In this document: positions 50-60,879 of the stretch, in pieces
How positions within the stretch are numbered: the first letter of the stretch is position 1
How the letters are laid out: the number at the start of each line of letters is the position of its first letter
NCBI GenBank assembly: GCA_922989275.2
Contig: OV277869.1
Location: 27,972,189-28,036,188 of the forward strand
Direction of reading: 5' to 3'
From: Gari tellinella
Lineage: Eukaryota; Mollusca; Bivalvia; Cardiida; Psammobiidae
Length of the DNA: 64,000 bases
Notes under the pieces: generated by a model
What the model was told of the DNA's origin: nothing
Seen by the model: the letters and a program-made list of their open reading frames with translations, nothing else
The model's database searches: none
Made by a program: the position numbers and the translations under genes

Positions 50-481
50 TCACAATTCATTATCTTTATTTGACAATTCTCGTCTCTTTCTGGCATACAA
101 GTCTTTTAGATATTTGTCAGGAGTTAAACGCTTTTCTTCTAATTCCGCCCACACTTTATCCACTCTATGCATGGTATTCGCGCCTTCAAGTTTCCGACCA
201 ATAAAGTACAGTTCAAACTCCTTCCTTCCCATAAGGTTACATTTAGTTATCTTGCATAAATTTTTGAGAGATTTCCGCTCTATGTCTGGCACAAATTTCA
301 CTCCTACGAATTTTTCCACGTCTTCTAGGTCCACCTGATACTCTTTAAGATAGTGTTCATAGCCTATTGGCTTGTTGGGAACAATAAAAGATGCCATAGC
401 TATAGGCTTGGCTTTCTTATCTTCAGCAACGATTACCTTATATAAATGAGTTGGCACACTGACGTCATTCTCTCCAATCAC
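50..481 (-). CDS. EXOG: EXOG (mitochondrial endo/exonuclease G-like), coding exon 5 of 5
   Basis: Last of five exons that join in phase into a 370-residue EXOG-type nuclease (coding lengths 181, 168, 140, 192 and 432 nt, total 1113). EXOG is a DNA/RNA non-specific (beta-beta-alpha metal) nuclease anchored in the mitochondrial inner membrane and involved in mitochondrial DNA maintenance. This exon (residues 228-370) starts at GTG ATT GGA after a strong acceptor (pyrimidine run ending TTTCAG, 482-500) and continues exon 4 in phase 0 across the KYQ/VIGENDV junction. It carries the end of the nuclease fold (VIGENDVSVPTHLYKV, then ASFIVPN) and the EXOG-specific C-terminal region (ELYFIGRKLEGA). 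The stop is at 50-52. Total length agrees with vertebrate EXOG (about 368). The neighbouring family member EndoG lacks this C-terminal extension, so EXOG is preferred. Confidence 0.93.
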   Translation of the reverse strand: MIGENDVSVPTHLYKVIVAEDKKAKPIAMASFIVPNKPIGYEHYLKEYQVDLEDVEKFVGVKFVPDIERKSLKNLCKITKCNLMGRKEFELYFIGRKLEGANTMHRVDKVWAELEEKRLTPDKYLKDLYARKRRELSNKDNEL

Positions 482-574
482 CTGAAAGGGAAAAAGAAAT
501 CCGGTAGGATCTGTCATGAGTCGATGTTGAAGACAAGCTGATCATTAACAAGTCGAGAATTGAATTGTTATTAA

Positions 575-8606: not shown

Positions 8607-11600
8607 TCAGGCCAGGCATTTTGCTGTCCTGCTACAGTATAACAGTAGACTGTACTGCTCCTGCTCCTGTTTCCGCTGTCTTGTGGGTACCCTTTGGGTG
8701 GGGAAAGGCTATGGGAGTAAACCGAGACAGAAAATCACACTGCTACAAGCTGGGTAGTAGTTTTTGGCCTCCAGGGCGGACACCAATGAACCGGTGTTAC
8801 TTGGCCTGGGGCCAGCGCGGCTCGACGGAGGATCCTGCATGTCTCGGGACAACGGCGAGGCGCACTGCCCGAGTGAGGGAACGACGGAAGTCTCTGGCGC
8901 CGCAAAGGTTCGGAGTTCATCAGCAAGGACATGCGGTCCGGAAAACCTTGTTCCAGCAATCATGGCTAGTACGACACGTAACCAGCTTGATGGTGCCGGC
9001 AGGCGACATAGTTCTGTCGGTAACATCTCGGGCTTAGCAGACTCTCGGGTGCGGGAGGCGGGGTCCGGCCCTTGTGGCAAATCAAGCGAGCACCCGACCA
9101 AGTTTAGGGCCGCCACATGGAATGTGGGAACCCTAAAAAGAAGAGGAAGCGAAGTTGTGGAGACCCTCACCAGGAGGGGTGTGGATCTATGTGCTGTGCA
9201 GGAGCACAGATGGGCAGGCAGTACATCAGCCAACCAGACTCGCCAAATCCATGGAAAGGATTCCATTTACAAGTTCTTCTGGAGTGGCAACAGTAAGGGC
9301 CAAGGTGGAGCTGGTGTGTTGCTTGCAGAGAAATGGACTGACAAGGTATTTGCCGTTGAGCGGGTCTCTGACAGGATCATCCTCATTAGATTGGTTCTTG
9401 GCAAGGTGGTCTTCACTTTCATCTCTGTGTACGTGCCACAGTGTGGCTTACCGGAAGCTGTAAAGGACCAATTCTATGATCAGCTACAGAGTTTGGTCTC
9501 CAAAATCCCAGCATCTGAGACCCTCATACCCCTTGGGGACTGGAACGGTCATGTGGGGGCTGAAGGATGTGGTTTTGAGGAGGTGCACGGTGGGCGAGGA
9601 TTCGGTCTTCGTAATACCGAAGGAGAGAGAGTGTTAGAGTTTGCTCTGGCAAACGACCTAATTGTCGGCAACACCTGTTTCCTGAAGAGAGAGAGTCACC
9701 TGCTCGGGAAACCACAGGTCACAGATAGACCTCATACTCTATAAGAAGTGCTTTCAAAAAGCAGTTACTAATGTGAAGGTCATCCCTACAGAGGAGTGCG
9801 TTCAACAACTCAACCTTGTAGTGTGCGACTTCAATGTACGCATTCCCACAGTTAAGAAGCGCAAGTTCTCCCCACGTATACGAACCTGGAAGCTGAGGGA
9901 CCAAACTGTGGCGAATGAATTCCATGCAACCTTCGCAGAAAAAGTATCTGCTTCTGCAAATGACTTGTCTACCGGAACTGCGGAAGAGGTGTGGGCGAGA
10001 CTGAAGCAACCTCTCTTAACAACAGCGACAGAGGTGTGTGGACTCTCCAAAAACCACCAGTGGAAGCGCCAAACCTGGTGGTGGGACAAGAAAGTTGAGG
10101 ATGCGGTGCGGACAAAACGATCCTGTTTCAAGAATTACAAAGCCCTACTAAAGACTGGCCCTAGCAGCGAGGTTTCTACAGCCAAAGCTATTCACCATGA
10201 GGCTAGACGCATTGCCAAGCATGCTGTTTGGCAAGCGAAATCAGAGGCTGAAAAGGACAGGTTTGCAAACGTCTCTCCAAATGATGGAACCATCTTCAAG
10301 CTTGCAAAGCAAATGGACAGGCAAAATCAGGATGTTGTTGGAGAGAAGTGTGTTAAGAACGACAAAGGTGAACTATCGCTCAGTGACGAAGAGAAGATGA
10401 AGGCGTGGGTGGAGCATTACTCTAAACTGCTTAATGTTGAGTTTGAGTGGCAGAGTGACCTTCTTCCAGAAGTCAACCCAACAGAGGGTCCTCCCCCTCC
10501 AATTACTCCGAATTTAATTCGTGAGGCTCTCGGTAAAATGAAGGATGGGAAAGCTGCAGGTCCTTCGGGCATCATTGCCGAGATGTTGAAAGCAGCAGGG
10601 GAGGAGGGAGTTGAGTTGCTGAGACAACTGACACAGGCAGTCTTCACTAGTGGTGTAATACCCAATGATTGGGAGGAGAGCTACATCCTTAACCTGTACA
10701 AGGGTAAAGGTGATGCTCTAGAGCGTGGGAATTACCGTGGCCTCAAGCTAACGGACCAAGTGATGAAGTTACTGGAGCGGGTGCTGGACACTTTTGTACG
10801 AAGGATGGTTGACATTGACTCTATGCAGTTTGGCTTTGTTCCTGGGCGTGGCACCACTGATGCGATCTTCATCATCCGCCAGTTACAGGAAAAGTACATT
10901 GCAGCCAACAAGCCACTGTATCTTGCCTTTGTGGACCTTGAGAAGGCCTTTGACAGAGTGCCTAGGAAAGTCCTCTGGTGGGCATTACGAAGTCTTGGGG
11001 TTGACGAGTGGGCTGTGCGTGTCATTCAAGGAATGTACACTGATGTCAGAAGTCGAGTGCGCGTCAACGGGCAGTACAGCAATGAGTTTGGAGTCGAAGT
11101 TGGAGTGCATCAGGGTTCGGTCCTCAGCCCTCTGCTTTTCATCATTGTACTTGAGGCACTTTCACGCGAGTTTCCTACCGGCGTCCCTTGGGAGCTTCTA
11201 TACGCTGATGATCTCGCCGTGGTTGCAGACTCACTCGAGGAGTGCATTTCCAAGTTGACAGCTTGGAAAGCAGGTATGGAAGGTAGAGGGCTGAGGGTCA
11301 ACATGAAGAAGACCAAGCTCATGGTATCCGGCCCAGGGCTTGATCTTCTTCGTGACTCTGGGGCATTTCCTTGTGCTGTGTGCCGGACTGGAGTTGGGGT
11401 GAATTCCATCAAATGTTCCCAATGCTTGCTGTGGGTACACAAGAAATGCTGTTGCATCAAAGGCAGAATTGCTGACGACCCGGACTATGTTTGCCCCAGG
11501 GGTCGAGGTACGGCGCGCCCTATTGATGGTAGACCAGTCACCCAAGTTGACGTGGATGGTGTTCAACTCGGTGTGGAAGCAAGTTTCTGCTATCTAGGTG

Positions 11601-12212
11601 ATACACTGTGTGCAGGGGGAGGATGTGAGCTCGCCATCATCACCAGATGCGGTACGGCCTGGGGAAGGTTCAAGAAACTCCTGCCTCTTCTTACATCTAG
11701 GCATGTGTCCCTCAAGGCTCGTGGGAGAGTTTTTGATGCTTGTGTGCGGTCTGCGCTTCTTCATGGAAGTGAAACCTGGGCACCGTCTGCCTCAGATTTG
11801 CAGTGTCTACGTCGGAATGACAGAGCCATGGTCCGTTGGATCTGTGGTGTCAAGTCCCAAGACGACATCACGACAGATGCACTGTATGCAATGCTGGGGA
11901 TTCAGGAAGTGACAACGGCCCTACGCACAAGGCGTCTGAGATGGTTTGGACATGTATCCCGTGCTCAATCATGTATCAACTCGATGATGTGTATGGAAGT
12001 GCCAGGATCCAGAGGGAGAGGGAGGCCGAAGAAGACTTGGTTGGAATGTGTCGAGGCTGACATTAAGACATGCAGCCTCGACGGCATTGATCCGCAAAAT
12101 AGAGAAGCCTGGAGGTTAGGTGTGGGAAACTCTAGCCACCTGCTGCCTACCCCTGTAGGGACACCTGCAGCAGTTGAAAAATAAACTCAGGATTTAGTTA
12201 GTTAGTTAGTAG
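8607..12212 (+). mobile_element. Non-LTR retrotransposon (LINE), near full length
   Basis: 3.6-kb insertion between direct copies of TCATTG (8601-8606 and 12213-12218). Removing it restores the family F sequence AAGATTTCATTGAAAAAATC found intact at 12520-12545. It encodes an APE-type endonuclease and a reverse transcriptase and ends in a (TTAG)n tail (12195-12212) rather than poly(A). G+C is visibly higher than in the flanks. The 5' region (8607-8760) is short and may be a 5' UTR or a truncation. Clade not fixed: CR1/RTE-like proteins annotated as craniofacial-development-protein-2-like in other invertebrates are the closest I recall. Confidence 0.88.
8761..12184 (+). pseudogene. LINE polyprotein: APE endonuclease + reverse transcriptase + PHD-like finger, one frameshift
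   Basis: Frame opens after a stop at 8758-8760; the first ATG is at 8838. Endonuclease: ATWNVGTLKRRGSEVVETLT, VQEHRWAG, PLGDWNGHVGAEG. The endonuclease end is in another frame: 9705-9772 reads SGNHRSQIDLILYKK in the frame used by the downstream 9773-12184 part, so a small indel near 9700-9706 breaks one ancestral frame. Reverse transcriptase: GKAAGPSGIIAEM, FGFVPGRGTTDAIFI, FVDLEKAFDRVPR, HQGSVLSPLLF, LLYADDLAV (YADD at 11201-11212). A cysteine/histidine cluster follows (CAVC..CSQCLLWVHKKC, about 11372-11500), then the C-terminal part (RRLRWFGHVSR). Stop at 12182-12184. Apart from the one frameshift the frame is open, so insertion was recent. Confidence 0.88.
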
Positions 12213-12898: not shown

Positions 12899-14210
12899 GT
12901 ACAACGTGTGACCTAGTTTTTGACCGGGCATGACCCTCATTCTAACTTGACCTCGATTTCAATGAGACAAACATTTTGTTAAAGTTTCATGAAGATTCAA
13001 TGAATTTTGTAGTCTCTATAGAGTGTTAACAAGGTTTTTGGATGATTTGACCTAGTGACCTAGTTTTTGACAAGACATAAGTCACATTTGAACTTGACCT
13101 ATATGTCATTGAGGCAAACCTTTTCATCAAGTTTTATGAAGATCAAATGAAATTTGTAGTATCTAGAATGTTAATAAGGTTTTTCTATGATTAGACCTAG
13201 TGACCTAGTTTTTTACCGGACATGACCCACATTTTAACTTGACTTAGATTTCATTGAGGCAAACATTTTGATGAAGTTTCATGAAGATCCAATGAAAGTT
13301 GTAGTCTCTAGAGTGTTAACAAGGTTTTTCGAAGATTTGACCTAGTGACCTAGTTTTTGACCGAACATGACCCATATTCGAACTTGGCCTAGATTTCATT
13401 GAGGCAATCATATTGATGAAGTTGTATGAAGATCCAATGAAATTTGTAGACTCTAGAGTGTTAACAAGGTTTTTCGATAATTTGACCTAGTGACCTAGTT
13501 TTTGACCGGACATAACCCACATTCGAACATGGCCTACATTTCATTGAGGCAAACATTTGGATGAAGTTTCATGAAGATCCAATGAAAGTTGTAGTCTTTA
13601 GAGTGTTAACAAGGTTTTTCGAAGATTTGACCTAGTGACCTAGTTTTTTACCAGACATGACCCACATTCGAACTTGGCCTAGATTTCATTGAGGCAATCA
13701 TATTGATGAAGTTTAATGAAGATCCAATGAAATTTGTAGCCTCTAGAGTGTTAACAAGGTTTTTCGATAATTTGAACTAGTGACCTAGTTTTTGACCGGA
13801 CATGACCCACATTCAAACTTGACCTAGATTTCATTAAGGCAAACATTTTGATGAAGTTTCATGAAGATCCAATGAAAGTTGTAGTCTCTAGAGTGTTAAC
13901 AAGGTTTTCGAAGATTTGACCTAGTGACCTAGTTTTTTACCGGCCATGACCCACATTCGAACTTGGCCTAGATTTCATTGAGGCAATCATATTGACGAAG
14001 TTTCATGAAGATCCAATGAAATTTGTAGCCTCTAGAGTGTTAACAAGGTTTTTCGATAATTTGACCTAGTGACCTAGTTTTTGACCAGACCTGACCCACA
14101 TTCGAACTTGACCTAGATTTTATGTAGGCAAACATTGTGACCAAGTTTCATCAAGATCCAATGAGATTTGAACCTGCTAGAGTGTTAACGAACAATTGTG
14201 GACGGACGGA
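12899..14210. repeat. 145-bp tandem array with 290-bp alternating higher-order pattern
   Basis: The marker GACCTAGTGACCTAGTTTTT recurs at about 13049, 13194, 13339, 13484, 13629, 13774, 13918 and 14063, a period of 144-145 bp. Units alternate between two types: GAAGATTTGACC (13332, 13622, 13911) and GATAATTTGACC (13477, 13767, 14056), paired with GGCAAACATTTTG versus GGCAATCATATTG. The repeating block is therefore 290 bp. The array ends with a GGACGGACGGACAGACGACGG stretch and the hairpin CACCTTGGCACTACGTGCCAGGTG (14255-14280). Confidence 0.75.
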
Positions 14211-21673: not shown

Positions 21674-22213
21674 TAGTCAGACGAATCCTTAGATCACCTG
21701 TAATTGGGTGAACCAGGATAAGTCCAGTATCCGTTGAGAAACATTTTGATGAAAACCAATTTGAAATCCTACCAGCAGTTGGGAAGAAGAAGATTATTCT
21801 AGATATTTGGCATGGTTGCCATGGCAACCAGACAAATAACCCAAATGACAAATTTTTAACAACTTTCCAATCCACCCCAATCCAAACCTTTCTTTCTGCT
21901 TTAAAGTTTTAATCCCTATGGTGTCACTTCTCATTGGATTCGAGACGATTCTCATGATTAGTAACACCATAGGATTCGGTGCTGTATTCTCTATCTCGAT
22001 ATTTCTGCTGCACACCCTCACGGGTAATTTCGAGCAGTTTGCGCGCCAAGTGCCTATTAGTAGAAATAGGAACAGATAAAAGTTAAGGAAATAAGGGTGT
22101 AAAGGTGATAGGGGTTAAAATACTAGGGTGAAAAGATAAAAATCAGGATTAGTGAGAAAATGTTGGATTTGTTCAGAATACTCCCTCTTATCTGGAGCCC
22201 TGCAAAATGCTAC
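21674..22213. other. EXOG intron 1 near the donor; family I palindrome
   Basis: Contains the family I palindrome (CCCTATGGTGTCACTTCTCATTGG at 21913 and its partner to 21972). The remainder shows no recognisable gene; the EXOG donor GTAGCA is at its right edge. Confidence 0.4.
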
Positions 22214-22394
22214 CTGCTATGGATTCTTGTTGTGACAGTTTCGATTCCTTTGCAAGCTCAGCTTGCTCCTTTTTGTGTTCGTACATTCTGTAGTACACAA
22301 ACGTAAGTGATGTGATGACACTGCCTGTCAGCAATCCTCTCCAGTAAACTGGGTTTCTAAACTGGAACGATTTGTGTCGCTGTTGTCTCTTCAT
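22214..22394 (-). CDS. EXOG: EXOG coding exon 1 of 5 (membrane anchor)
   Basis: 181-nt coding part of the first exon: ATG at 22392-22394, donor ATAGCAG/GTAGCA, ending with one base of codon 61. Residues 1-60: a basic head (MKRQQRHKSFQFRNPVYWRG), a hydrophobic stretch (LLTGSVITSLTFVYY, about residues 21-35) and a charged tail (EHKKEQAELAKE). This matches the short N-terminal transmembrane anchor that holds EXOG in the mitochondrial inner membrane. No in-frame ATG upstream was chosen because the sequence 54 bp upstream is a transposon insertion site. The promoter may have been displaced by that insertion. Confidence 0.85.
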
Positions 22395-22456
22395 CTTGTC
22401 TTCTTTTCATCACAAGCATGCAAGAACGATACGACTTTCGGACGGAAATGAAACAC

Positions 22457-23230
22457 GGGTGTGGGTAAAATACTGACGGATTCTACTGACGAGTTAAAAC
22501 AAGAACAAAACGCTGACCAGTTAAGTTATATAGGCTTTTCTCGATTCTACTGACGACAAAGAATGAGAACGAATATCACTGACACTATGTAAACGTATAG
22601 GAAAGTGGCTGACCACAATGGATCTGAATAAATTAGAAAATTAATTGAAGTTATTAAAATCAAAATATCTAATATAATAGTAGATTAAATATCTGTCAAA
22701 AAAAAAAATTTAAAATTTGAAAAATTTTTTAAATCAAGGTTTAAGAAGTTAAATGGTATTTTTTGGTTTTTTTTTGGTTTGTTATATAAACACGTGATTT
22801 TAAAAATGAATTTAAAATTTAAAAATATTTTTTTTTTTTTTTTAATATTTATCTAGATAAAGATATAGATCTAGAATTATAGAATCCATATTAATTTATA
22901 AGTGTATAACAAATTCTAAAATAGTTTGAAATAGCTGAAAACGGAGTTGCTGACCAGTTGAAACAAGAACAAAACGCTGACCAGTTAAGTTATATAGGCT
23001 TTTCTCGATTCTACTGACGACATAGAATGAGAACGAATATCACTGACACTATGTAAACGTATAGGAAAGTGGCTGACCACAATGGATCTGAATAAATTAG
23101 AACATTAATTGAAGTTATTAAAATCAAAATATCTGATATAATTATAGATTAAATATCTGTCAAATTTTTTTTTTAAAAATTTAAAAAAAAATTTAAATCA
23201 AGGTTTAAGAAGTTATATGTTTTTTTGTTA
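22457..23230. repeat. Left terminal inverted repeat of the 8.88-kb element (two subterminal units)
   Basis: Unit marker GGAAAGTGGCTGACCACAATGG occurs at about 22600 and 23066. Between units lie A+T runs (AAATTTAAAATTTGAAAAAT) and the motif CTAGATAAAGATATAGATC. Matches 31334-30800 in inverse with only scattered differences. Confidence 0.8.
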
Positions 23231-23837
23231 TATATACACTTGATGAATGTTAAGCCATGAATTTAAAAATTAATTTATGGCTTAATTTATAAGTGTAAAA
23301 TAAATTTTATAAAAGTTAAAGTAAAAGAAAATTTCAATACATTATTGAGTCGTTTTATTACATTAAATAAAAGTTCTAAATAATGTCTTGCCATTACTTT
23401 ATTCATTTAAAAATATGTTTTGAAAGCATCCGCTACACAATAAATTGTGTACCCAAGACTCGGGATCGTGGACCCTGCTTTCATGAGCCTCATAATTTTG
23501 AATTTTGGTGGCACGTATATTAATAATATTAAATAGCCACTTACCAAAAAAAGCCAAAATGCAATATCGCCGAAAAAGTCAATCTCAATGAAAGTAAAAT
23601 GGTCGTTATTTGTCTTTTCGCACATAGGATCCAATCAGAAAAAATATACTGTGTTTATCGGCCGCCTATCTCTATTGTGGGCGTGTCCTAATGTGTGACC
23701 GATTGAATGTAACACCATGCTGTTAATTGGTGTACCTGTTTATTAAGAGTTTAGCTAATTGATACGGTATGGTCGGTTTAATCTGACACGTTGTTGTTTT
23801 ATTGTGGTTCTGAACTACTTACTTAAAGATAAAAGGA

Positions 23838-25544
23838 TTATTTACAGAGTTCGCACACAAACTCGCTACTGGTAGTCGATATATCAGCTGGAGCATTAAC
23901 GCATGAATAGTGAAACCAAAGATCACAAATAGTACATAGCACCATATTCTCAACACATTCTGGTAAATTACATATGCAGTATGTATCGATAATAATCTTG
24001 TGCATTTTATTTTGCCTTCTTCCACTGATTGTTTTTTCAGTTGACGGAAATTCGGATATTTCGTTTTTCTCGAAACAGTGGAATAGATGACTACGTAGCT
24101 TGCTTGTATCGTAAATAACATCAAAACAGAGTGATTTTCGGAAGCAATAGGAAGTTAAAAATGCTATCGCGTACAGACCACAATCGATACTGTTATTTTG
24201 TTTCATCACTACCGGCATTTGTATATGGATAGATTTATCATTCCGGCCATATAATTGCGCAAGTTGGATTTTTAATCCGTTTGGAATAAGTTTGTCGTTT
24301 TTCCTGCTTTCTGTACCTAAACTATCTAAAAGATATATTACATTTTTATGATAAATTGAAGAAACCCAATGATCATGATGGTTATGGTGAATCTGGCACG
24401 CGGGAGAATCAACCCTTTCGAATGGAACGGCCATATGCCATTTTTTAGTTGATTCGTTATAAACAGGTACAGTATCGGTGTATTGAAAACCGTTTATGTT
24501 TTTACCGAATTGATTTCTGAGGAGTATGTTGACAGCCTCCATGTGATTGGAATTTAATTTACGGTTATTTAACAAGTCTTCTCTATCGTCTGTAGTGAGT
24601 TTTAAATTTTCCAACCAATATTGACACTCTATGTGTTTTATTTCTGAGCAAAGTTCTAAATCAATCAAGTCGTCATTAATTGAATCACTCAAATCTAATT
24701 TCGGTGTTTTTACGTAATTGTTTGCGTCGTCTTTAAATTGTAATTTCCTCTTTTTACCAGTACTTTTAGGGGTTTTGCGCTTAATCGGCCTATCTTTAAG
24801 TATTGATCTTGGTGTAGATTTGCCGTAATTAATTTTTTTCCTTGTTTTTTCAACAGTGTCTCTATTTTTTACAGTGTTTTTAATCGTGGGCGTATCAAAA
24901 GTTTCTTCCAAACATCGAGTTTTTACAGCCGAATCTGGCGCAGGGTTAATAGAAAAATCTCCATCCCTATCCCCACGGCGTCCCTTCTTTGTACCAATTT
25001 GTTTTTGACTTTTTGTGCGACCGTTTTTCTGTAATTGAGTTAAGTTATATACTTTTTTACCACTACCAACCTCCATACCAATCGATAACTTTGCTGCTAT
25101 TATATGATAGCATGTCGCTGTCGAAGGACATTGACATTTTTCTGTGGGAAATAATGTTACCGCATACTTTTTGTTATTTGACCCTTTAACCATAAATGAG
25201 CCCATTTCTGGCACTAAGACTATGGCATTATCGGCGATAGTTTTACACGCTAAAGAAATTTGTGATCTGTTCTCTAATATTGGATTATTTGGCAATTCAT
25301 CGTTAGAAATATCTTTTTCAGTATCGTTGCTTACTTTTTCTACATTTATTTTAATGTCGTTTTCTTCGATTTTCTTTTCTTCTGATAAGTCACTGAGAAT
25401 TTTATCTAGTTCCCCCTTCACTAATGCTACAATTTTGTCTGGATGACATGTATTCTTTGGTAAAACAATTGTTTTCTACAAACGTTTCATTACCATGCAA
25501 ACTGAGGTGCAGACCGTCCCGGCTCAGAAGTCCTCGATTCACAC
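23838..25544 (-). CDS. Transposon gene exon 4: end of SGNH domain, then SWIM finger, Ulp1/C48 protease and PHD finger (one frameshift)
   Basis: Acceptor GGTTTTGTAG/GTGTG; the exon finishes Gly from exon 3 (G+GT) and reads NRGLLSRDGLHLSLHGNETF (SGNH block V, DGLH). Near 25480 the frame must shift by one base to continue as LPKNTCHPDKIVALVKGEL and the open frame down to the stop at 23838. That frame has a CxC-x5-CxH cluster (CQCPSTATCYH) like SWIM fingers, a long basic linker, and a C48 protease core: His in DHWVSSI (24369-24371), Asp in YLLDSLG (24324-24326), and Q..DCG in QNNSIDCGLYA (Cys 24180-24182). It ends in a PHD-type finger (CICNLPEC..CTICDLWFHYSC..CELC). AATAAA follows at 23744-23739. 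Ulp1-like proteases cleave SUMO-like modifiers; the role here is unknown. Whether the frameshift is real or an assembly error is open. Confidence 0.8.
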
Positions 25545-25918
25545 CTACAAAACCAGAGAATAATGTTAGCAGTTGATTTATACAGAAGATTTTACATGAG
25601 TACTCATTGTTTATCCCTTTACCCAATAACCCGTTTAAAACATTAAATACAGGTGATCACTTAAAGCAGGTTCAATCTGCTTTACTTTCAGCCTGCTTTA
25701 AACTACCATGTGCTAGGCAGATTCTGCTTTACTTTCAGTCTGCTTTAAACTATCATCTGCCATATTTGTTATGGAACTATTTTCTTTTGGAGGATGAATA
25801 AAATGAATGCGCTAAAAGTCGCTTCTATAAGGGAAAGGGTTATCATGTTAATTCCAGTCAATGTCATTTTGTAAAATGTATCTCGTATGAATTCGTTACA
25901 TGTAATTAAATAACTTAC

Positions 25919-26106
25919 CAAACGTAGTGTGAAACTGCGTATGTGGAATGACTTCCACTCCGTCCATGCCACTGGCATAGTGGCGCAACATCCCGTTCAC
26001 CTCACTGGCCTCCCGATTCCAACGCTGCAGCCTCCCCTCATCTACAACACTTCCAGGGAAACAGTTCTGTGCGCATGGCAGAATCTCAGACACCAGAATT
26101 GTTGAG
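25919..26106 (-). CDS. Transposon gene exon 3: SGNH-hydrolase-like domain
   Basis: 188-nt exon: acceptor TGTGTTACAG/CTCAAC, donor ACGTTTG/GTAAGT, phases 2 in and 1 out, agreeing with the exons on either side. It encodes STILVSEILPC, RLQRWNREASEVNGMLRHYA and VIPHTQFHTTF. The pattern (short beta strand, then a helix with W.REA.EVN..L) is what is seen between blocks III and V of SGNH hydrolases. Confidence 0.75.
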
Positions 26107-26672
26107 CTGTAACACAAGAAGCAGTAAACTGTAATTCGCATGTTTATCCCTTTACCTTATAGCCTTTTTCTACTTTTAAAAATTGGAAACTGCTTAAAGC
26201 AGATTGAAAGTAAAGCACAATGCGCCTGAAGGCGCATTGTTTTATTTTCAGCCTGCTTTATGCTACATGGAGCTTATTTACGGAATTCCTTTATTCCTCC
26301 AATGAAGAAAAAAACTCTGCTTTACTTTCAATGACTGCTGCATATTTGAGATTTTATCTACATTACATTATACGCGTGGGAATCTCAGACACCAGAATTG
26401 TTGAGCTGTAACACAAGAAGCAGTGAACTGTAATTCGCACGTTTATCCCTTTACCTTATAGCCTTTTTCTACTTTTAAAAATTGGAAACTGCTTAAAGCA
26501 GATTGAAAGTAAAGCACAAAGCGCCTAAAGGCGCATTGTTTTATTTTCAGCCTGCTTTATGCTACATGGAGCTTATTTACGGAATTCCTTTATTCCTCCA
26601 ATGAAGAAAAAAACTCTGCTTTACTTTCAATGACTGTTGCATATTTGAGATTTTCTCTACATTACATTATAC
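26090..26672. repeat. ~290-bp tandem duplication including the exon 3 acceptor and a family A MITE
   Basis: The stretch TCTCAGACACCAGAATTGTTGAG through a family A hairpin to ATTATACGCGTGGG occurs twice, at about 26087-26376 and 26379-26676, with few differences. The second copy contains an unused duplicate of the exon 3 splice acceptor (26380-26425). Confidence 0.75.
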
Positions 26673-26776
26673 GCGTGGGGTTGTTTGTTGTTAATTTTAG
26701 TTAACTGAAGCAAATGTTTGCAACTATAGGTAGTTATGCGTATGTGTGTGATTTTTAGTATGTACTTTTTTTTTAC

Positions 26777-26883
26777 CTTGGGGAACAGTAATAAACCAGA
26801 TCACACAACTCCTCAATATCTCCCATCACCTTTGCTGGCCTTCCTCTTCCAATGTCGTTGGCACCAACGACTAACACAACAAC
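26777..26883 (-). CDS. Transposon gene exon 2: SGNH block III
   Basis: 107-nt exon: acceptor TTTTGGTTTCAG/GTTGTT, donor CCCCAAG/GTAAAA, entering in phase 0 and leaving two bases (AG) that make Ser with exon 3. It reads VVVLVVGANDIGRGRPAKVM, then EELCDLVYYCSP. VGAND is the GxND block III of SGNH/GDSL hydrolases, in which the Asn helps form the oxyanion hole. Confidence 0.78.
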
Positions 26884-26889
26884 CTGAAA

Positions 26890-28940
26890 CCAAAAAAAAG
26901 TGTCATTTTTTTCTTATATCGCCACATTTAAAAGGCCGTAACTGACATTTTATCAGAAATTGACTTTTTTACATTTTCCATTTCTAATTCAGCTGTATCA
27001 ACTTATGTTAAAATATCTAACTTATATTCAAATAGGCTTTTAAGATAAGGGCAAATTCTGCTTACTTTTAACCTGCTTTAGGTGGTCACCTATCTTCAAA
27101 CTAGAAACAAGCTATGGGTAAATGGGTTTCTTCTTCTTTAAATTTCAAATGTTTGAACTGTTATTAGAACAGATAAATAGCGATAATTATGAATATCGAA
27201 CAGTCAATCAGCTAGGACAGTGGTCAGACGCCGATTTTCTCGGCGTCTGTGCATTATCCAAGCTGCCTGTAATTTTTATTTCACCGGGATAAAGCAATGA
27301 AGATGTTAATATTACAACAGTGAGGTTGCACTAAGTAATTTATAACTATATTATATTTGCGCTGATATAAATAGGTTGATATCCAGAAGAGATCTTAATC
27401 AAAACTGTTTGACACTCGATTGTTTTACCACTTACAATAACTGTGCTGTCATATATCTAATTCTAAAGTTCAGCTTTAGCAAAGTTTCCTTTTAACATTC
27501 TAATCGCAATTAGAACAATAACAATATAGCCTATAGTCTAGGCCCTAGTAAACTCTAAATATTGTCTCGTGTCACTGACGGACACGTGGTTTAATGGGCC
27601 GAGACAATTATAGGTATAGGGCGTGGCTTATGAAGTAGATTTATTTGGATTGGTTGAGAGATTTAATAGGATAAACCTGATGAATGTATCGTGTTGCTGA
27701 CGAATTAATATGAGTTTTGTTTGTGATTATTTTATTTCTTTGTTTTAACTTTTTGTTTTTTGATTTTTTAAATAATAATTGAGTTTCGTAGTTCGTTTGC
27801 AAAATAAATAGCATTACTTAGATTCAGTAATTCTCGCAAAACTTTCGTATCGCACTTTTGTTAAAAAAATAGTCATATATTAACTTTAACTTATACCTTC
27901 AAAATTTAACTGTAAATGCTGAAAGAATTGTAAAACTAATACCAAACATAATCGGGTATAATAATAACTAGCAATAAAAATAATGTTGCCTTTTTATTAA
28001 TTACTACATATAAAGGGGGTATTTTGAAATCTATTTATGCTTGCTTGAAACTTGTATGCTTGCTTGAAACCCTATGGTGAGACTACTCATTATCTTCGTC
28101 TCAAAGGGACGATTCTGATAAGTAGTTACATCGTAGGATTTGGTGCTGAAATTATTATTATACCAGATTTATATAGCGCTCTTTTCACACGGGGGTTGTG
28201 CGTTCAAAAGCGCTTTACATGAAATAACATATATCTGGAGTCGTGATAACTACCGTAATTTGTTTAATTATACATGATTAGGAACAATTAACAATACTGA
28301 ACATAACAGAACAGAACACTCATTTTATTTGACTTGTACACAATATCCATCGTCAAACATGTATGTAATCTGAGTAATAAAGGAATTGTTCTGTTCTGTT
28401 CTACAACTTTTATACAAACTGTTACGTCAATCAAGATGCTTATACAAACCTATAACAATATACATGATATACATAATTATTTATTATTCTTTGTCTCTGC
28501 TGGGAGAGTACAAACTTATTATCATACTATGTATTTAATTACGTTCATTAATTCCTTAAACAAAAAAGTTATTAATTACTATTGAACAATATTTACATGT
28601 CTGCTTCTTAAAGCAAATGCTTCTTTAATAAACAAAGGCATAATTTAAACATTGAATGTTATATAATATACAGTAGCTTTAACCGCTAAACAAACAAATA
28701 CATCAGCTCAAATAACAGTATACCCTATCGATATGCAATCAAATAGAAGCTACGCAGTTACACTGTACCTCAACGTGTGGAGTAATATATTCGCACAGCG
28801 GGTGTTTTAAATGACACGTGTCTCACATACTAATCCTATTAGCAGAACAGAATAGAACAGAGCATACCGAAATGAAATTTTAAATGGGCCCCTCTGAATC
28901 TAACATATTTAGTCAGTAATTTGCTACAATAATGTTAACA
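26890..28940. other. Intron 1 of the transposon gene; repeats only
   Basis: Holds a decayed family A end (27030-27125), a decayed hairpin with AGACGCCGATTTTCTCGGCGTCT (27226-27248), a family I palindrome (28070-28138), and TTATTATTATACCAGATTTA with CGTTCAAAAGCGCTTTACAT (28150-28225), a motif also seen at 45175-45255. The rest is A+T rich. No transposase motif was found in any frame. Confidence 0.45.
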
Positions 28941-28951
28941 TGTTTACTTAC

Positions 28952-29098
28952 CGAGAAATAAGGAATGACTTCCTGAAGAACTTCTTCCTTCAAGAACTGT
29001 CTCGTGCGGTAGCCAGGATAAGCAAATACACTGAACTCCGCAGAGTCCAGGTACTCGGAAAAATACTTAACCTGGCTATGGCCGATGATCAAAGGCAT
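28952..29098 (-). CDS. Transposon gene exon 1: SGNH block I
   Basis: ATG at 29096-29098; 49 codons ending at donor TTTCTCG/GTAAGT (phase 0). It reads MPLIIGHSQVKYFSEYLDSA, then FSVFAYPGYRTRQFLKEEVL. IIGHSQ is a block I (GDS-like) motif with the presumed catalytic Ser, and YPGYRT matches the G following it. Together with GAND (exon 2) and DGLH (exon 4) this gives all the main SGNH landmarks in order across four exons. SGNH hydrolases are usually esterases or acyl hydrolases; in mollusc and cnidarian repeats such domains are known as cargo of mobile elements with no proven role. Confidence 0.78.
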
Positions 29099-29989
29099 CC
29101 TCAATTCCAAATGTGCAATTCACCGAAAAAAAACTCACAATAAAACACCCACAGTTATTTCACTTAGCACAGACTTATTCCAACACTCAAATCAAAGTAT
29201 AATGAAGTTCACTAATATGGAGTTTATGCACAGAGATAATATGTAACGATTATCGATGTTAACACACGCAATACAAGAGCAATAATGATCGACAATTCAA
29301 GATTATAATGCAAAGAGGGGATTTATCACACCTTTTGTTGGATTGTTGACAAACCACCAATCAAATTAAAGGCAGCATAATAATATTTTTAATTGATTAC
29401 GCTCGAGCCTACACTACAAACTGCGACAAGTTTCCAAATAAATTAATCATTAATTAAGTGGTAATTACATCAAAGAAAAGAGCCGACAATTAACGGTAAC
29501 CTTTAATATAGGAATGCCTTTACCTTTCAATATCAAACACTATATTAAAGTATTATCGACCTTTAGATTAGTACAAGTTAATACCTGATCAAACGCCAAG
29601 GAATTCGATGATCTGGAACGTCATTTGAAACATGATCAAATTCAATCTTTAAATATAAATTCTTTGGTGATTCTATTTAATTTTAAATTGATGTAGATCT
29701 ACACTTCAATGGCGAATGTATCTCATATGATATGTGAGTGTTAACCACAACTTTAGACCTTTTCCCACTTTATTAAAATTTGGCTTATAATTTTAAAAAT
29801 TCCACTTTAATTTTGTAAGTAATAAAATAATTGTCAACATTTATTAATAAATGTATTAGATCTTTATATAGATCAATAATTAAATCGTAAAAATATTTAT
29901 TCTTTTCTAACCTACGCATTAATAAATGAAAGATATTATTCTATTAAGTTAACAATAATAAATCACTGAAATAAAACTCGAGTAACACT

Positions 29990-31334
29990 TCTACTCGCAT
30001 AAAATGATCTAATTTATTCAGATCCATTGTGGTCAGCCACTTTCCCATACGTTTACATAGCGTCAGTGATATTTGTTCTCATTTCAAGTCGTCAGTAGAA
30101 CCGAGAAAAGCCTATATAAGTTAACTGGTCAGTGTTTTGATCTTGTTTCAACTGGGCAGCAACTCAGTTTTCAGCTATTTCAAACTATTATAAGATTTGT
30201 TATACACTTATAAATTAATATGGAATCTATAATTCCAGATCTTTATCTAGATAAATATTAAAATAAAAAAAATTATTTTAAATTTTTAAATTTTGAATTA
30301 ATTTTTAAATTCATGTGTTTATATAACTTCAATTAATGTTCTAATTTATTCAGATCCATTGTGGTCAGCCACTTTCCCATACGTTTACATAGTGTCAGTG
30401 ATATTCAGTGATATTCGTTCTCATTCTATGTCGTCAGTAGAATCGAGAAAAGCCTATATAACTTAACTGGTCAGCGTTTTGTTCTTGTTTCAACTGGTCA
30501 GCAACTCCGTTTTCAGCTATTTCAAACTTTTATAGAATTTGTTATACACTTATAAATTAATATGGAATCTATAATTCTATATCTATATCTAGATAAATAT
30601 TAAAAAAAAATTTTTTTTTAAATTTTTAAATTTTAAATTAATTTTTAAATTCATGTGTTTATATAACTTCAATTAATGTTCTAATTTATTCAGATCCATT
30701 GTGGTCAGCCACTTTCCCATACGTTTACATAGTGTCAGTGATATTCAGTGATATTCGTTCTCATTCTATGTCGTCAGTAGAATCGAGAAAAGCCTATATA
30801 ACTTAACTGGTCAGCGTTTTGTTCTTGTTTCAACTGGTCAGCAACTCCGTTTTCAGCTATTTCAAACTATTTTAGAATTTGTTATACACTTATAAATTAA
30901 TATGGATTCTATAATTCTAGATCTATATCTTTATCTAGATAAATATTAAAAAAAAAAAAAAAATATTTTTAAATTTTAAATTCATTTTTAAAATCACGTG
31001 TTTATATAACAAACCAAAAAAAACCCAAAAAATACCATTTAACTTCTTAAACCTTGATTTAAAAAATTTTTCAAATTTTAAATTTTTTTTTTTGACAGAT
31101 ATTTAATCTACTATTATATTAGATATTTTGATTTTAATAACTTCAATTAATTTTCTAATTTATTCAGATCCATTGTGGTCAGCCACTTTCCTATACGTTT
31201 ACATAGTGTCAGTGATATTCGTTCTCATTCTTTGTCGTCAGTAGAATCGAGAAAAGCCTATATAACTTAACTGGTCAGCGTTTTGTTCTTGTTTTAACTC
31301 GTCAGTAGAATCCGTCAGTATTTTACCCACACCC
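29990..31334. repeat. Right terminal inverted repeat of the 8.88-kb element (four subterminal units)
   Basis: CAGCCACTTTCC recurs at about 30035, 30366, 30707 and 31180 with A+T-rich spacers containing ATCTAGATAAATATTAAA. Units at 30366 and 30707 carry an extra ATATTCAGTG duplication. The terminal 500 bp mirrors 22457-22980. Confidence 0.8.
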
Positions 31335-31353
31335 ATGAAACACATGTAAACTG

Positions 31354-31596: not shown

Positions 31597-32734
31597 TTAC
31601 ATATTTGATTTTTTGATTTCATTTACAAAATATAGAGTCGAATCTTTTTTGAAGTCGAAGGAAATGCTTTCCATGAGACCTTTGCCTAAGCAATCCCAAT
31701 CTCTCACAGTTCTAGGGAAAAAACTAAATTTGTAACTATTTGTTCTAGCATAAATATGATTATAGTGATAATTATGCATGTTTTGGTTCTACGTTTTGGG
31801 GATGATAGGTTTTCAGTTGGTATTTTTGATTGTTCATTTAGACCTTTGAAAAACAATATTATCCTACTTCTTTTTCTTCTTTCCATTAGTGGTTCTAATT
31901 CAAGGTCGTCTAAAAGCTTGGTCATAGTACCTGGTTCATACACATAATTTGATGTAATGAATCTTACTGATTTCTTTTGAACTTGTTCTAATTTAAATTA
32001 TCTTGTAAACCTGATTGATGTGGATCCCATGCCGTACTGGCATATTCTACTACTGGCCTAATAAGTGATTTGTATGCTGCCATTTTAACACCTTGTGGAC
32101 AAAAAGATAAATTTCTTCTAAGAAGACCTAGAGTTCTGTATGCCTTGTTACAGACTTCTTGAATATGTTTATTCCAATCCAGTGTGTTTGTTATATTAAC
32201 CCCTAAGTATTTTATGGATTCTAGAAATTCAAGTGTTACTCCATCCAAAGTATAACTTGAAGAAATTATGTTTTTCTTCCTACTTAACTTCATCATATTA
32301 CATTTTACGGGTTGAAATCTCATTCCCCAGTTTCTAGCCCATTTTCCTAGGTTGTTTATATCATTTTGTAAGAGAATACAATCATTATTGGTTTGAATTT
32401 CTCTGTAACATATCTCTGTACAATCATCGGCAAACAGTCTGATCTCGGATTCTACGCATTCAGCTATATCATTTATATGTATTAGAAATAATATGGGTCC
32501 CAACACTGTTCCCTGTGGGACACCTGACTTGACTTGCGCATCATCCGATTTCGTACCGTTTACCACAACTGTTTGTCTACGGTTGCTGAGAAAAGCATCA
32601 ATCCATTTTAAAACTTGTTTAGAAACTCCATATTTTTGCAGTTTAGATTTAAGTAATTCATGTGGAACTGTGTCGAAATCTTTTTCGAAATCAAGAACAA
32701 AGACATCAACTCGTTGTTTGTTATCTAATGACAA
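31597..32734 (-). pseudogene. Jockey/RTE-like non-LTR reverse transcriptase, 5'-truncated and frameshifted
   Basis: The upstream end lacks the endonuclease and the first reverse transcriptase motifs and starts within VFVLDFEKDFDTVPHELL. Visible motifs: SGVPQGTVLGPILFLIHIND, IRLFADDCTEI (FADD), then LGVNITNTLDWNKHI, RTLGLLRRNL and RPVVEYASTAWDPHQ. Near 31985 the frame shifts by one base into QVQKKSVRFITSNYVYEPGT, and near 31780 it shifts again into HNYHYNHIYARTNSYKFSFF and PRTVRDWDCL, the usual C-terminus of these elements. A typical 5'-truncated dead copy. Confidence 0.85.
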
Positions 32735-33134
32735 ACATATTGCTTTTCATCTGATCTTCACCAAACTTTCTGAAAATGTTTGTTGACACAAAATGGAGAC
32801 CAAGTTAGATAACCAGTGGCGCCAATTCATGCTAGGACCTTTGGAGTTACGGCCCTTGAATTCCTCAAAATTGCACTTTTATGGCGCTCTCCACGAAGAC
32901 AGTCTGGATTCCCATCCCTGTGCCATTGGGGGCATTCGTGTATCTGGGATACGCTGTTGTTGTTGTTTTTTAAATTACAAATAAATTGTGTTTAGCTTAT
33001 GATAATGTGCTACAAGATAGTCACAAATTAGTGTGACTACGAACCTTGAAAAAAAACAACGTATTTTTGCATGTTTAAACGACTCTAAACGAAAAACATA
33101 ATTATTATTGTAATTAAATGCTGGAAATGACATG
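32735..33134. other. Unclassified repeat-like sequence
   Basis: TCTGATCTTCACCAAACTTTC and GGACCTTTGGAGTTACGGCCC (the vocabulary of bivalve dispersed repeats) followed by A+T-rich sequence. No gene recognised. Confidence 0.3.
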
Positions 33135-36334: not shown

Positions 36335-36845
36335 TTAATTTGCCGTTCCACACAACTTTGACAGTATTTCCTGAAAAAACACAAGGTAAAATAAAAGCAT
36401 TCCACACGCCAATAAAACTATACACCCCCTTGTCATAGGCGCCTTACTAACTTTACTAGAGGTCAAGGACGGAGAGCCTCGTTCCTTACAAAGTCTATAT
36501 ATATCACAGTATGCAGCGCCACCAAACACCTGTTTAAAATCATTATACCAGCACATGGAACTATTGAACTGTGGCATATCAAGTTCACGTTCATTGAAAA
36601 ACAACTTTACAGCATACTTCGTTTTGTCCAAACTCTTTGCTTTGTTGTCACCTTGTGTAATATCTCTACATGCATACAGTGCAAACCCGATGTTCCCAGA
36701 CATCGGTGCTATATTACTCATCTTGAACAGTCTGTCGCCTTTTCTGGTTTCACTGAGAGGTGGATTATCTCGAAAGAGTCCAAGTGCAGTCAACGTGCCT
36801 AGAACGGAGCCAGAGTGACCGAACATGAACGAGCCGACCGTGTAG
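36335..36845 (-). CDS. MINPP1-like histidine phosphatase, last exon (C-terminal domain and membrane anchor)
   Basis: Multiple inositol polyphosphate phosphatase (MINPP) family: removes phosphates from InsP6 and lower forms, normally in the ER lumen or outside the cell. Exon 36845-36335 follows acceptor TGTATTGATAG/CTACAC; its first base completes Asn with AA from the previous exon. It reads YTVGSFMFGHSGSVLGTLTA, LGLFRDNPPL, then ALYAC, YAVKLFFNERELDMPQF and a C-terminal hydrophobic stretch (CIVLLACGMLLFYLVFF) before the stop. The position of the family's HAE proton-donor motif (FGHAET) reads FGHSGS here, lacking the Glu. The C-terminal stretch suggests a type I anchor, or a GPI signal. Gene symbol withheld because of the altered motif and likely paralogy. 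Confidence 0.82.
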
Positions 36846-38551
36846 CTATCAATACACAAGACATGTAATTGATTGTCATAGAATTTGGACACTAACCTTG
36901 ACTGGGTAGGAACTTGGTTACAGTGGTGCGATGGTCCTCACGACAGGTGGTATCGGAGTCCTGCCTATACATGTTTCAGAGTGCTTTCGTGAAGCAAAAT
37001 CAGTCATGTTGAAGAGAACGGTAAAGAGGTAATTTTAAGGCTAAGCTGTCAAAAACGCGGTAAAATTGATTTTTCATCATATAGTCTGATGTTTTTTCAA
37101 GCATCGTATATGCTTATTTCGTTCCGTTTATGGAATTTATGGCTGAAATAGTCAATTAAACGCCGTGGAAATCAAGGTTTTTGTACACAAAGAACAATTC
37201 TTCTACAATTACTGTATAAATTCGCCTGTATTTAATGTTCGTTAAAGTTTATGGCAAGATTAACACTTAAATAACATCTATGCAAGAGACTCGCATTATA
37301 TTAATAATATAATATATATATGGTATTTACTAGATTGTTATGTGACGCATAAGGTTACAGAGTCTAAAAGAGAGTGTTACAGGTTCTCTGACGACAGGTA
37401 ATAAAGGGTTACAGGTTCTTATCGACATTTTTGTTTTGTTTGAGAGAGAATGGATCTAAAGTGCATGTATAGCAATGTGTCTTTTACCCTTTACAATGCC
37501 TTAAGCTTGTCACCTGTCTTTTATACAACCAATTAGCCTTCCTTTTAGTGGCTGTAATTTATATTTACTGTAATTATTACATATTATTGCGTTCGGTTAG
37601 TGCCGACTTTATATTATTTTATCATATGTAAAGAACCATCGTCGTATTTAATCATTTCGAAATAGTTTACACTACTTAACGATACAAAAATAATGAAAAG
37701 TACCCAATTTCAAAGATTCTGTAAGTGTATTTATTTAACACAATGAAAACCAAACCCTTATAAAATAGATATATACATCTACTTGCAAATATCTCAAAAT
37801 CGATCACTGAAATAATGTTTAATTTAGAACAAATCCAAAGGCAATAAATAACCGGTACTAGTAATAAAAAAAGAATCTGCAAAATTACCGTATGGTTATC
37901 TCAGTCCATTACTTAACTTGTCAACCAAACTTAATACTTAATGCGGACACTGAAAGCCACCTTTAATTTAGGTAAATATGTTTTCAAGATAAAGCCATCC
38001 TACTAGGCAAGTCTCATATCTTGCCACTGGCGAACTCTGACCCAAATTTCCACTAGTTGTGCTCTTTTTTAATGCAAATTTTCTTAATAAGTTGGTCAAT
38101 TTTCTAAGTTTAACTAATAAATTTGTCAACTACTTCTCAAACCAATATATCATATGTGCAAAACGATTCGTCATACATTTGTATATCAAATATAAACTAA
38201 ACCCGTTCACTGCTTTACCCTGACCGTACAATCACAGATAAACAGCTAAGATTCGAATGAGAACCTGAACAATTCTGTGTCTGAATCGGATCAAAGTTGT
38301 TTGACTATCTCAGAGATTCTTTTTCGAGTTTGATCCTGGTGAGAAATCGAGAAAGTTAGCACCGCACCAGGATCTTAACTGTTTGCAAATATGACTGTTG
38401 GTCTGTTCAATGTATAAAACAGAATACGTTATAGATCTTCATCCGGGAATAGGATCGAACCGCACAGAAACCCGTGCATATTATTAACTTCACAAAGTTT
38501 ATTAAGTACTGTAAGGACTAGAGCAATTTCAATTCTCAAGGGTGGGTAAAT

Positions 38552-51263: not shown

Positions 51264-51931
51264 GTATTCATGCTTGAGACTCGAACTGGATAAGGAAAGT
51301 TGAAGAACAAATAATTTGCAGGGAATAAACAAACAATCATGCAACTATTAGTCTGATAAATATATTATTTTAATACTGAATTCCCTTTTTCAATGGTTTT
51401 TCATTGGTGCCTCTTACAGAGTCCAGCACAGATTTCTCCTGGCTAGGTAAACACAATCTAGTATGAATAATCTGAGTACATTCTATAAATAGCATATAAA
51501 GCGATGTCATTTCAGTTCATGCTGTGACTTATCGAGTTATGTGATCCTATCATGCATTATGCCATCGTGTAGGCAAAATAATCGCTCTTTAAAATAATAT
51601 ATCACATATTACTTTTTGAAGCACCTTCATATTACGACAAGATAAGATATATTATCGCATTGATGTAGTAATGGATAAATGATTGTTTTCGAAGAAAATA
51701 TTTTTAAGGTAATACGGTAATAAGGTAATACCACTAATACGATCGGGCCAATTTTGGTCAATATCGGTACTCTACGGAGAGCGATCGGTCATTCTCGTCA
51801 ACTGTCGGTCGCCAGTTGACGAGAATAGCCGATCGCTGTGCGTAGAGCCCTGAGTTTAGTTCGATCTCAAGGGATCCTGAAGTTTCAAAAGTTAATTTCA
51901 GGTCAACCAATCACGAAGATATTTTGTGCAG
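51264..51931. other. Upstream of the fucosyltransferase exon; hairpin near 51770-51850
   Basis: The upstream exon(s) encoding the cytoplasmic tail and membrane anchor of the transferase were not identified here. An imperfect inverted repeat pairs GATCGGTCATTCTCGTCAAC with GTTGACGAGAATAGCCGATC at 51783-51836. Confidence 0.35.
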
Positions 51932-53020
51932 GATACCGTTCGACTTGTTAGAAACTACACGATTCTTTGGTTTAACCCACCGCACATTATCCACCTTCGT
52001 CCAAATGCCAAATACTGTGGTTTCGATGCTTGTCAATATAACAACTGCCGCATGATATTTAATAGATCTCATAAAAAAGATAGTGATGCAGTGATATTTG
52101 ACGGAAAATTTGTTGGTCCACGTACAGTATTCAAACGACCCATTGGCCAGGTATGGATATTTGCAGAGCACGAGTCCCCTGCACTTTATGGTAGTGGACC
52201 ATGGAGAAAATCGCCTTGGAGCCATAGTTTCAATTGGACAATGACGTACGATAGATCAAATACAGATATATATTTGCCGTATGGTGAATTGCGAAAACGG
52301 CACACCCTACCAATCAGGAACTATACCAATATCGCCTCGAATAAGTCTAATGACATTCTAATGATCAGCTCGCATTGCCCGACAGATTCAAGAAGAGAAT
52401 CATTTGTTTCGAAGTTACAGGAACATATAAATGTAACAATTTTGGGAAACTGTGGAGAAAAATGGAACTGCGGAACAAGATTTGCCCACGATGATCATTG
52501 TTTTCAGATATTGAATAAGTATAAATTTTTCTTGGCCTTTGAAAATGCCTTTTGCCATCAATACTTCACGGAGAAATTTTTTGATAATTTTAATTATAAT
52601 ACTATTTTAGTAACAAGAGGAGGACGAAAGGGTGAAGTTTCAAATTTGTTTCCAAATGACACATTTATTTCTACGGATAATTTTAATTCAATAGAACATT
52701 TATCTAAGTATTTGAGGAATATTGCTGGGTCAGTTGAAAAATATGCAGAGCTGTTAAAGAGGAAAGACCAGTACTATTCTGTTGGTTTTACGAGTGTGTA
52801 TCAGCGTGCAATGTGTGACATCTGCAAACGAATGAACAATCAAGACAAATACCGGAAGACTATTTCTGACATGTACAAACACGTTTATGCCAATAAGTCT
52901 TGTAGAATGCCTGACGATATAAAATCAAACACCCAACAACTTTACAAATATTACACCCTTATCATTCCCTCCTGTCAAATGATATCAGTCTTGCATTTTC
53001 ATTTTTTCTTTGGAGCTTAA
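51932..53020 (+). CDS. Alpha-1,3-fucosyltransferase (GT10 family), catalytic exon
   Basis: Golgi type II membrane enzyme that transfers fucose from GDP-fucose to N-acetylglucosamine (or core GlcNAc) of glycans. One exon holds the whole catalytic region. The start follows acceptor ATATTTTGTGCAG/GATACC (no suitable ATG, so an upstream anchor exon is missing). N-terminal GT10 part: ILWFNPPHII, YCGFDACQYNNCRMI, DAVIFDGKF, QVWIFAEHESPALYG. C-terminal GT10 part: GNCG, FFLAFENAFCHQYFTEKFFD (the alpha-1,3-FucT signature, near 52530-52585) and RGG. It ends with CDICKRMNN, which is near the usual C-terminus; about 30 further residues (LYKYYTLIIPSCQM) before the stop at 53018-53020 are atypical and may be read-through past a donor. 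AATAAA at 53467-53472. The exact subfamily (FUT-C-like, glycoprotein 3-alpha-L-fucosyltransferase A) is not resolved. Confidence 0.85.
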   Translation, partial: DTVRLVRNYTILWFNPPHIIHLRPNAKYCGFDACQYNNCRMIFNRSHKKDSDAVIFDGKFVGPRTVFKRPIGQVWIFAEHESPALYGSGPWRKSPWSHSFNWTMTYDRSNTDIYLPYGELRKRHTLPIRNYTNIASNKSNDILMISSHCPTDSRRESFVSKLQEHINVTILGNCGEKWNCGTRFAHDDHCFQILNKYKFFLAFENAFCHQYFTEKFFDNFNYNTILVTRGGRKGEVSNLFPNDTFISTDNFNSIEHLSKYLRNIAGSVEKYAELLKRKDQYYSVGFTSVYQRAMCDICKRMNNQDKYRKTISDMYKHVYANKSCRMPDDIKSNTQQLYKYYTLIIPSCQMISVLHFHFFFGA

Positions 53021-60716: not shown

Positions 60717-60879
60717 CCTTTTGGTACTATCTTATAGCTTATTTCCTCAGGAGGTCGGAAACAATCGTCTGACGCGTATTTAGGTAGTGATAAGGGGAGA
60801 TAATTGAGGTTAAAGTTGTCTGCCCTTGGATTTTTAAGCAACAAATGACATCCTTAATGGGCTTTTATTTCATGTGTTA
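60717..60879. other. 5' flank of the Penelope-like element
   Basis: No terminal repeat matching 58288-58345 was seen here, so either this copy lacks an upstream terminal repeat or its end is inside the frame region. Confidence 0.3.

Follow-up and report, generated by a model that had tools for sequence, protein, structure and literature searches.

Among animal Mutator elements, those of hydra and lancelet have been reported to contain Ulp1 protease domains, and a published alignment of Ulp1 and PHD sequences includes Mutator transposases (PMC2836005). In the same source, Ginger1 is described as a DNA transposase with a C-terminal Ulp1 domain, to which Ginger1-9_HM adds a PHD finger, and Ulp1 is also encoded by Kaonashi and other plant Mutator-like elements (MULEs) (PMC13317346). 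Hydrolases of the SGNH type have been described from other mobile elements, namely the long interspersed nuclear element (LINE) ZfL2-1 with its lipid-binding esterase (PMC3905857), Ngaro elements with an SGNH open reading frame (PMC9210276), and fish Helitrons, with which the intron-bearing texim SGNH genes are associated (PMC4021074). Here, a 64-kb stretch of the genome of the bivalve Gari tellinella was analysed (contig OV277869.1, forward-strand positions 27,972,189 to 28,036,188; hereafter the window), which contains a transposon of 8,878 bp at 22457-31334 with an SGNH esterase gene and a SWIM-Ulp1-PHD coding region between long inverted ends. This element is probably a non-autonomous MULE in which the catalytic half of the transposase has been replaced by an intron-bearing SGNH gene segment and which would be moved in trans.

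The element, analysed from a single copy within the window, is bordered by an exact 9-bp target-site duplication, ATGAAACAC, the copies of which (22448-22456 and 31335-31343) adjoin both tips, in agreement with the 8-11 bp, mostly 9 bp, given for MULEs (Table 1, PMC6446971). Both sites of ATGAAACAC in the window are those abutting the ends; 1.21 are expected by chance and at least two occurred in 36 of 100 shuffles, so that the evidence lies in the position of the 9-mer and not in its rarity. The 19-base end GGGTGTGGGTAAAATACTG occurs in the window at the two element ends only, even when up to three mismatches are allowed (0.01 expected). The left terminal inverted repeat (22457-23194, plus strand) aligns with the right one (30608-31334, minus strand) with 94.5% identity across 748 columns, the outer 310 bp being perfect, and a repeat-finding program returned an ungapped arm of 593 nt at a rounded 100%. 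A preliminary description of this DNA had noted an exact 9-bp direct repeat outside long, near-identical inverted repeats, and both observations hold. The stretch 22457-31334 is a real mobile DNA element, and the length of its duplication and its terminal inverted repeats are those of the Mutator superfamily.

Both ends carry subterminal repeats. On the left, a block of about two units extends over 22457-23277 (second unit approximately 22941-23277), and on the right a tandem array of about three 340-bp units covers 30003-31010. The first left unit contains six CTGAC sites, at 22473, 22486, 22513, 22550, 22579, and 22609. CTGAC reaches a density of 15 per kb in both end blocks versus 0.9 inside the element and 1.2-1.8 beside it, and six copies in one 194-bp unit were matched by none of 1000 dinucleotide shuffles; these repeats look like candidate transposase-binding sites. 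A comparable architecture is known from Rehavkus, an outgroup or sister family of MULEs with a 9-bp target-site duplication, a PHD finger in the transposase, long inverted ends, and a minisatellite before the 3' inverted repeat (PMC6446971). Rehavkus was placed in arthropods and annelids, and the term Ulp does not appear in that paper. The Gari element shares with it the 9-bp duplication, the PHD finger, and the long inverted ends, and its tandem-repeat block beside one end may be comparable to the minisatellite; the larger array, of about three 340-bp units, lies 5' of the gene, however, with about two units at the other end. A Rehavkus-like affiliation is possible.

The 3' part of the coding region is a frame of 545 residues on the minus strand (23838-25475, stop codon at 23838-23840, first in-frame methionine at residue 91) that corresponds to the C-terminal part of a MULE transposase, consisting of linker, SWIM, Ulp1/C48, and PHD regions. 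The Ulp1/C48 protease domain (24051-24635, minus strand; residues 281-475, Pfam 322-453) exceeded the Pfam cut-off (E 2.4e-6), contains the motifs DHW, LLDSL, and KQNNSIDC, and has the profile, the fold, and the His-Asp-Gln-Cys residues of peptidase family C48 (Ulp1/SENP). The PHD finger (23844-23978, minus strand; residues 500-544) also exceeded its cut-off (E 5e-6), and its fold matches in Foldseek were weak, the best being 4l7x (E 0.019). The motif CQCPSTATCYH (25104-25136, minus strand; residues 114-124) has the SWIM form CxCPx5CxH. No Pfam SWIM match was obtained for the frame at E<=1, and SWIM profile matches in the homologues P0004, P0016, P0017, and P0018 were all below threshold; the putative SWIM domain is assigned from motif and homology.

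The search with this frame yielded 22 homologues, the named ones originating from Mactra, Mercenaria, and Mya. The precomputed MULE domain PF10551 is present in 4 of them, upstream of the part that matches the window. When Pfam was run on 13 of the 22, P0017, P0019, P0020, and P0021 exceeded the MULE cut-off, P0014 and P0015 fell under it, and P0016 far under it; PHD exceeded its cut-off in P0001, P0002, and P0014. Several relatives are fragments: P0017 passes for MULE and C48 and P0014 for PHD only, and none of these 13 homologues jointly passed the cut-offs for MULE, C48, and PHD. The domain order DDE, SWIM, Ulp1, PHD emerges from an alignment of the frame with 15 of the 22 homologues. CG-1-like N-termini were found under the cut-off in P0020, P0021, and P0022, and no relative was confirmed in the prokaryote genome and viral collections. 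As judged from these homologies, the SWIM-Ulp1-PHD region belongs natively to a MULE transposase, whose C-terminal tail it forms. The C48 and PHD assignments of the preliminary description are confirmed by Pfam, as is its expectation of full-length relatives with a DDE transposase (four over the MULE cut-off), and its SWIM assignment is supported by motif and homology. Its view of SWIM, Ulp1, and PHD as a newly assembled cargo set, put together to act on host SUMO or chromatin, has to be given up in favour of the native transposase tail.

The relatives, which align in the order MULE, SWIM, Ulp1, and PHD, recall the animal Mutator elements from hydra and lancelet with their Ulp1 domains, from which the Gari element differs by having an SGNH gene in place of the undetected DDE part. 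The likeness to Ginger1 is confined to the C-terminal Ulp1 and PHD domains of a DNA transposase, since the core of Ginger1 is a Gypsy-type integrase and not a MULE domain. In Kaonashi, in contrast to the tail described here, Ulp1 is described as transduplicated and as lying in a separate gene (KIU, of the VANC type) (PMC13317346).

Upstream of the tail on the minus strand, an SGNH gene of four exons is predicted. Exon 1 (28952-29098) contains the start codon, the GHS block, and the donor GTAAGT, exon 2 (26777-26883) the GAND block, and exon 3 (25919-26106) is followed by an SGNH portion of exon 4 (25475-25544) with the DGLH block, from which the frame runs on to a stop codon at 25402-25404. 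The three introns are of the GT-AG type, and the splice phases agree. A tandem duplication of 299 bp in intron 2 (26081-26679, minus strand; 293 of 299 positions identical) copies the exon-3 acceptor and the beginning of exon 3. The predicted product exceeded the Pfam cut-off for GDSL_2 (E 1.3e-10) and contains the SGNH blocks (GHS at 6, GAND at 56, DGLH at 157); with this profile and the Ser, Asn, and Asp/His blocks it belongs to the SGNH/GDSL hydrolases, as had been proposed.

Two relatives of the SGNH product were retrieved by a single-sequence search and 37 by a search with an alignment of those three sequences; all named ones are from bivalves (Dreissena, Mactra, Mya, and Ylistrum). By eye, the similarity to the frames of P0040, P0041, and P0044 ceases at the end of exon 1, and P0024 and P0026 continue through this border, as expected of spliced products. 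This pattern supports the predicted exon model. The relative P0026 from Mactra was modelled (mean pLDDT 76.6), and its fold matched those of sialate O-acetylesterase (E 1.5e-8) and of PAF-acetylhydrolase (E 8.2e-8). In sequence, the SGNH product weakly matched chain 4c1b, an ORF1 protein (E 0.011), and this ORF1 esterase was not among the 50 fold matches listed for the SGNH model. ORF1 proteins of LINEs can carry a PHD finger together with an esterase. The esterases of ZfL2-1 and Ngaro are encoded by retroelements, unlike the SGNH gene described here with its predicted introns, and texim is associated with a rolling-circle fish Helitron and not with a MULE with terminal inverted repeats (TIRs).

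The SGNH-derived and the transposase-derived sequences meet at 25463-25480 on the minus strand, where their frames are one base apart. Within exon 4, the SGNH frame ends at its stop codon at 25402-25404, and the tail frame is open only from 25475, just after an in-frame TAG. For a comparison of the junction, 15 of the 22 tail homologues extended upstream of their window match by about 20 residues or more, and 10 of these 15 begin to match at 25463-25475. The SGNH similarity to the Dreissena protein P0023 extends to 25471. Thus, two homologies meet at one point. When the upstream residues of the 15 relatives were used to look for the DDE side, the best match had an E of 0.031 in the element and 0.14 in the window. 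The element has no detectable DDE transposase, and because of this it is classified as a non-autonomous derivative on the basis of its ends and its transposase tail. The preliminary description was right in recognizing a Mutator- or foldback-like mobile unit with SGNH, Ulp1, and PHD domains, which the duplication, the ends, and the domain matches support; a complete novel unit, as it was understood there, is not compatible with the undetected DDE part.

The same description had proposed a single four-exon fusion gene. The phases agree through the SGNH portion; the continuous frame into SWIM-Ulp1-PHD does not exist, owing to the one-base difference at approximately 25475. A single SGNH-SWIM-Ulp1-PHD frame was therefore rejected for this copy, and an alternative acceptor reaching the Ulp1 frame was not favoured, because, by eye, the DGLH block would be lost. 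The esterase of this copy would be a predicted protein of 194 residues with a shifted tail, and SWIM-Ulp1-PHD could be expressed only from an internal start, giving 455 residues from the first methionine, or through another splice form.

For a non-autonomous MULE with a replaced catalytic half, the ends, the duplication, the domains, the junction, and the absence of a detectable DDE part are observed directly, and from these we infer movement in trans, the binding sites, and the route of capture. The ends and the 3' part of the transposase gene, encoding SWIM-Ulp1-PHD, are native to the element, and the SGNH gene segment, from 25475 to somewhere before 30003, occupies the place of the upstream part that bears the DDE domain. 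Lacking a DDE domain, the element would be unable to make the cuts on its own; a complete relative at another genomic site would move it in trans, probably by recognizing the CTGAC-rich subterminal repeats, and movement would proceed by cut-and-paste with a 9-bp staggered cut of the target. DNA repair or template switching within a copy of the MULE is the probable origin of the chimera, in the manner of the gap filling proposed for Pack-TIRs, and the source of the SGNH sequence may have been a separate SGNH gene or one that lay beside the transposase beforehand. Some points weigh against this reading. In 5 of the 15 relatives the match begins further downstream, at 24623-25298; gene conversion could be an alternative source of the perfect outer ends; and the frame of 545 codons remains open, which is unexpected for an old dead relic. 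A young age of the element or some use of the protein would explain the open frame.

A different explanation is that SGNH is a standing component of one mollusc MULE lineage, either as an N-terminal domain or as a neighbouring gene, and that the present copy lost the DDE part by internal deletion, which placed SGNH next to the tail. We regard this as possible but clearly less likely than a replaced catalytic half. It is favoured by P0048, which joins an SGNH end (E 2.0e-8 in the homology search; Pfam GDSL_2 E 0.01, under the cut-off) to a MULE DDE segment with 48% identity over 100 columns to P0021 (E 4.5e-25; Pfam MULE E 9.6e-6, just under the cut-off), although its contig has a length of just 1,184 bases. 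Two weaker cases point in the same direction. Pfam was run on 17 of the 37 SGNH relatives, and besides P0048 only P0055 had a MULE-type match, a ZSWIM3_N-like end that remained under the cut-off as a whole (E 0.034) and as a cut-out piece (E 0.002); the SGNH identity of P0055 comes from the homology search (E 1.5e-5 or better). P0028, a Dreissena gene model with SGNH identified by homology search, has a short SWIM-region match (E 4.8e-4, against 23 sequences). Against a standing component speaks that P0048 is the only one of the 37 SGNH relatives with a match to the MULE set at E<=0.05, and that a precomputed GDSL domain was found in none of the 22 tail relatives, though the length windows of the protein searches (about 300-954 and 107-340 residues) exclude a full-length SGNH-DDE-tail protein of about 1300 residues. 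P0048, P0055, and P0028 are leads toward repeated joins of SGNH and MULE sequences, not proof of them, and on their account SGNH may be a passenger that recurs among molluscan MULEs.

An extended form of this explanation, which we put forward tentatively and consider rather improbable as a whole, assumes that one lineage of mollusc MULEs has, as a standing part, an SGNH lipid-type esterase with introns, either upstream of DDE-SWIM-Ulp1-PHD or fused to it. The esterase, the deSUMOylase or deNEDDylase, and the chromatin reader would jointly serve transposition, and the window would contain an internal-deletion copy.

It is unlikely that splicing or in-frame copies give rise to a working SGNH-SWIM-Ulp1-PHD protein that acts on SUMO or chromatin where the element is inserted or counteracts silencing of the element. 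The GHS, GAND, and DGLH blocks and the Ulp1 and PHD motifs are present, the frame of 545 codons is open, and Ulp1-bearing VANC genes of plant Vandal elements are reported to aid the escape of related elements from silencing (PMC13317346); however, the one-base offset at the junction separates the two frames in this copy, and no such arrangement was recognised among the 22 tail and 37 SGNH homologues. A chance or assembly artefact, in which unrelated inverted repeats flank an unrelated SGNH gene, is very improbable, for although a single copy was examined, nothing was found in favour of an artefact itself, and the exact abutting duplication, the confinement of the end 19-mer to two ends, and the 748-column inverted repeat contradict it.

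The insertion may lie in the 5' region of a small host gene, since a frame of 68 residues (22188-22394, minus strand) has its ATG 54 bp from the left duplication; its match to COX14 is weak (E 0.017, under the cut-off). MULEs often insert in 5' regions of genes. On the other side, a reverse-transcriptase fragment (31988-32746, minus strand, E 2.2e-21) has its near edge about 650 bp from the right end of the element. Further retroelement sequences in the window are LINE-type open reading frames at 8761-12184 (plus strand) with an endonuclease-like match (E 5.9e-5, just under the cut-off), a reverse transcriptase (E 1.7e-29), and, after it, a weak PHD-like match (E 0.004, under the cut-off). At 58354-60731 (minus strand), a reverse-transcriptase-like open reading frame (E 3.7e-5, under the cut-off) is followed by a frame of 154 residues without a Pfam match at E 0.01; by eye, we take this region to resemble a Penelope-like element with a GIY-YIG part. 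The window also contains an EXOG-type endonuclease exon (50-541, minus strand; Exog_C, E 1e-12), a 145-bp unit repeated in tandem about 8.8 times (12908-14189), a C-terminal match to histidine phosphatases of branch 2 (36335-36937, minus strand; E 2.2e-6, over the cut-off), and an open reading frame of fucosyltransferase family 10 (51896-53020, plus strand; E 3.4e-37).

Pack-MULEs are defined by the lack of transposase coding sequence. The Gari element, in which a transposase tail of 545 residues remains, falls outside this definition. It resembles Pack-MULEs and Pack-TIRs in that probably foreign gene sequence is enclosed by its terminal inverted repeats, and it differs from them by several exons with introns and by the remaining tail. 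Gene capture by TIR elements has precedents in animals: among 100 animal reference genomes surveyed, 370 Pack-TIRs and no Pack-MULE are reported, and in a fly population case Ssk is carried by FB4 (PMC8277862). In a study of bivalve transposable elements, MULEs are reported from all of its mollusc genomes, and the terms SGNH, PHD, and Ulp are absent from its main text (PMC10294476); likewise, PHD and Ulp are absent from a paper on arthropod MULEs (PMC13359780). A literature search joining transposon, Ulp1, and SGNH hydrolase found nothing, and no description of an SGNH-MULE element was found in the titles and abstract beginnings among the literature matches listed, which is a weak test of its absence in print.

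It is not settled why LINEs, Ngaro elements, and fish Helitrons contain the SGNH esterases that have been reported from them. The MULE described here, together with the indications that SGNH and MULE sequences were joined repeatedly, would extend this list by one more class of elements, and one could then test whether transposons benefit from esterases or simply capture them frequently. Among animals, it would also come near to a Pack-MULE, a type that was not found in the survey of 100 animal genomes (PMC8277862). If a MULE lineage with SGNH as a standing component exists, it would provide, among DNA transposons, the counterpart to the esterase proteins known from LINEs and Ngaro retroelements.

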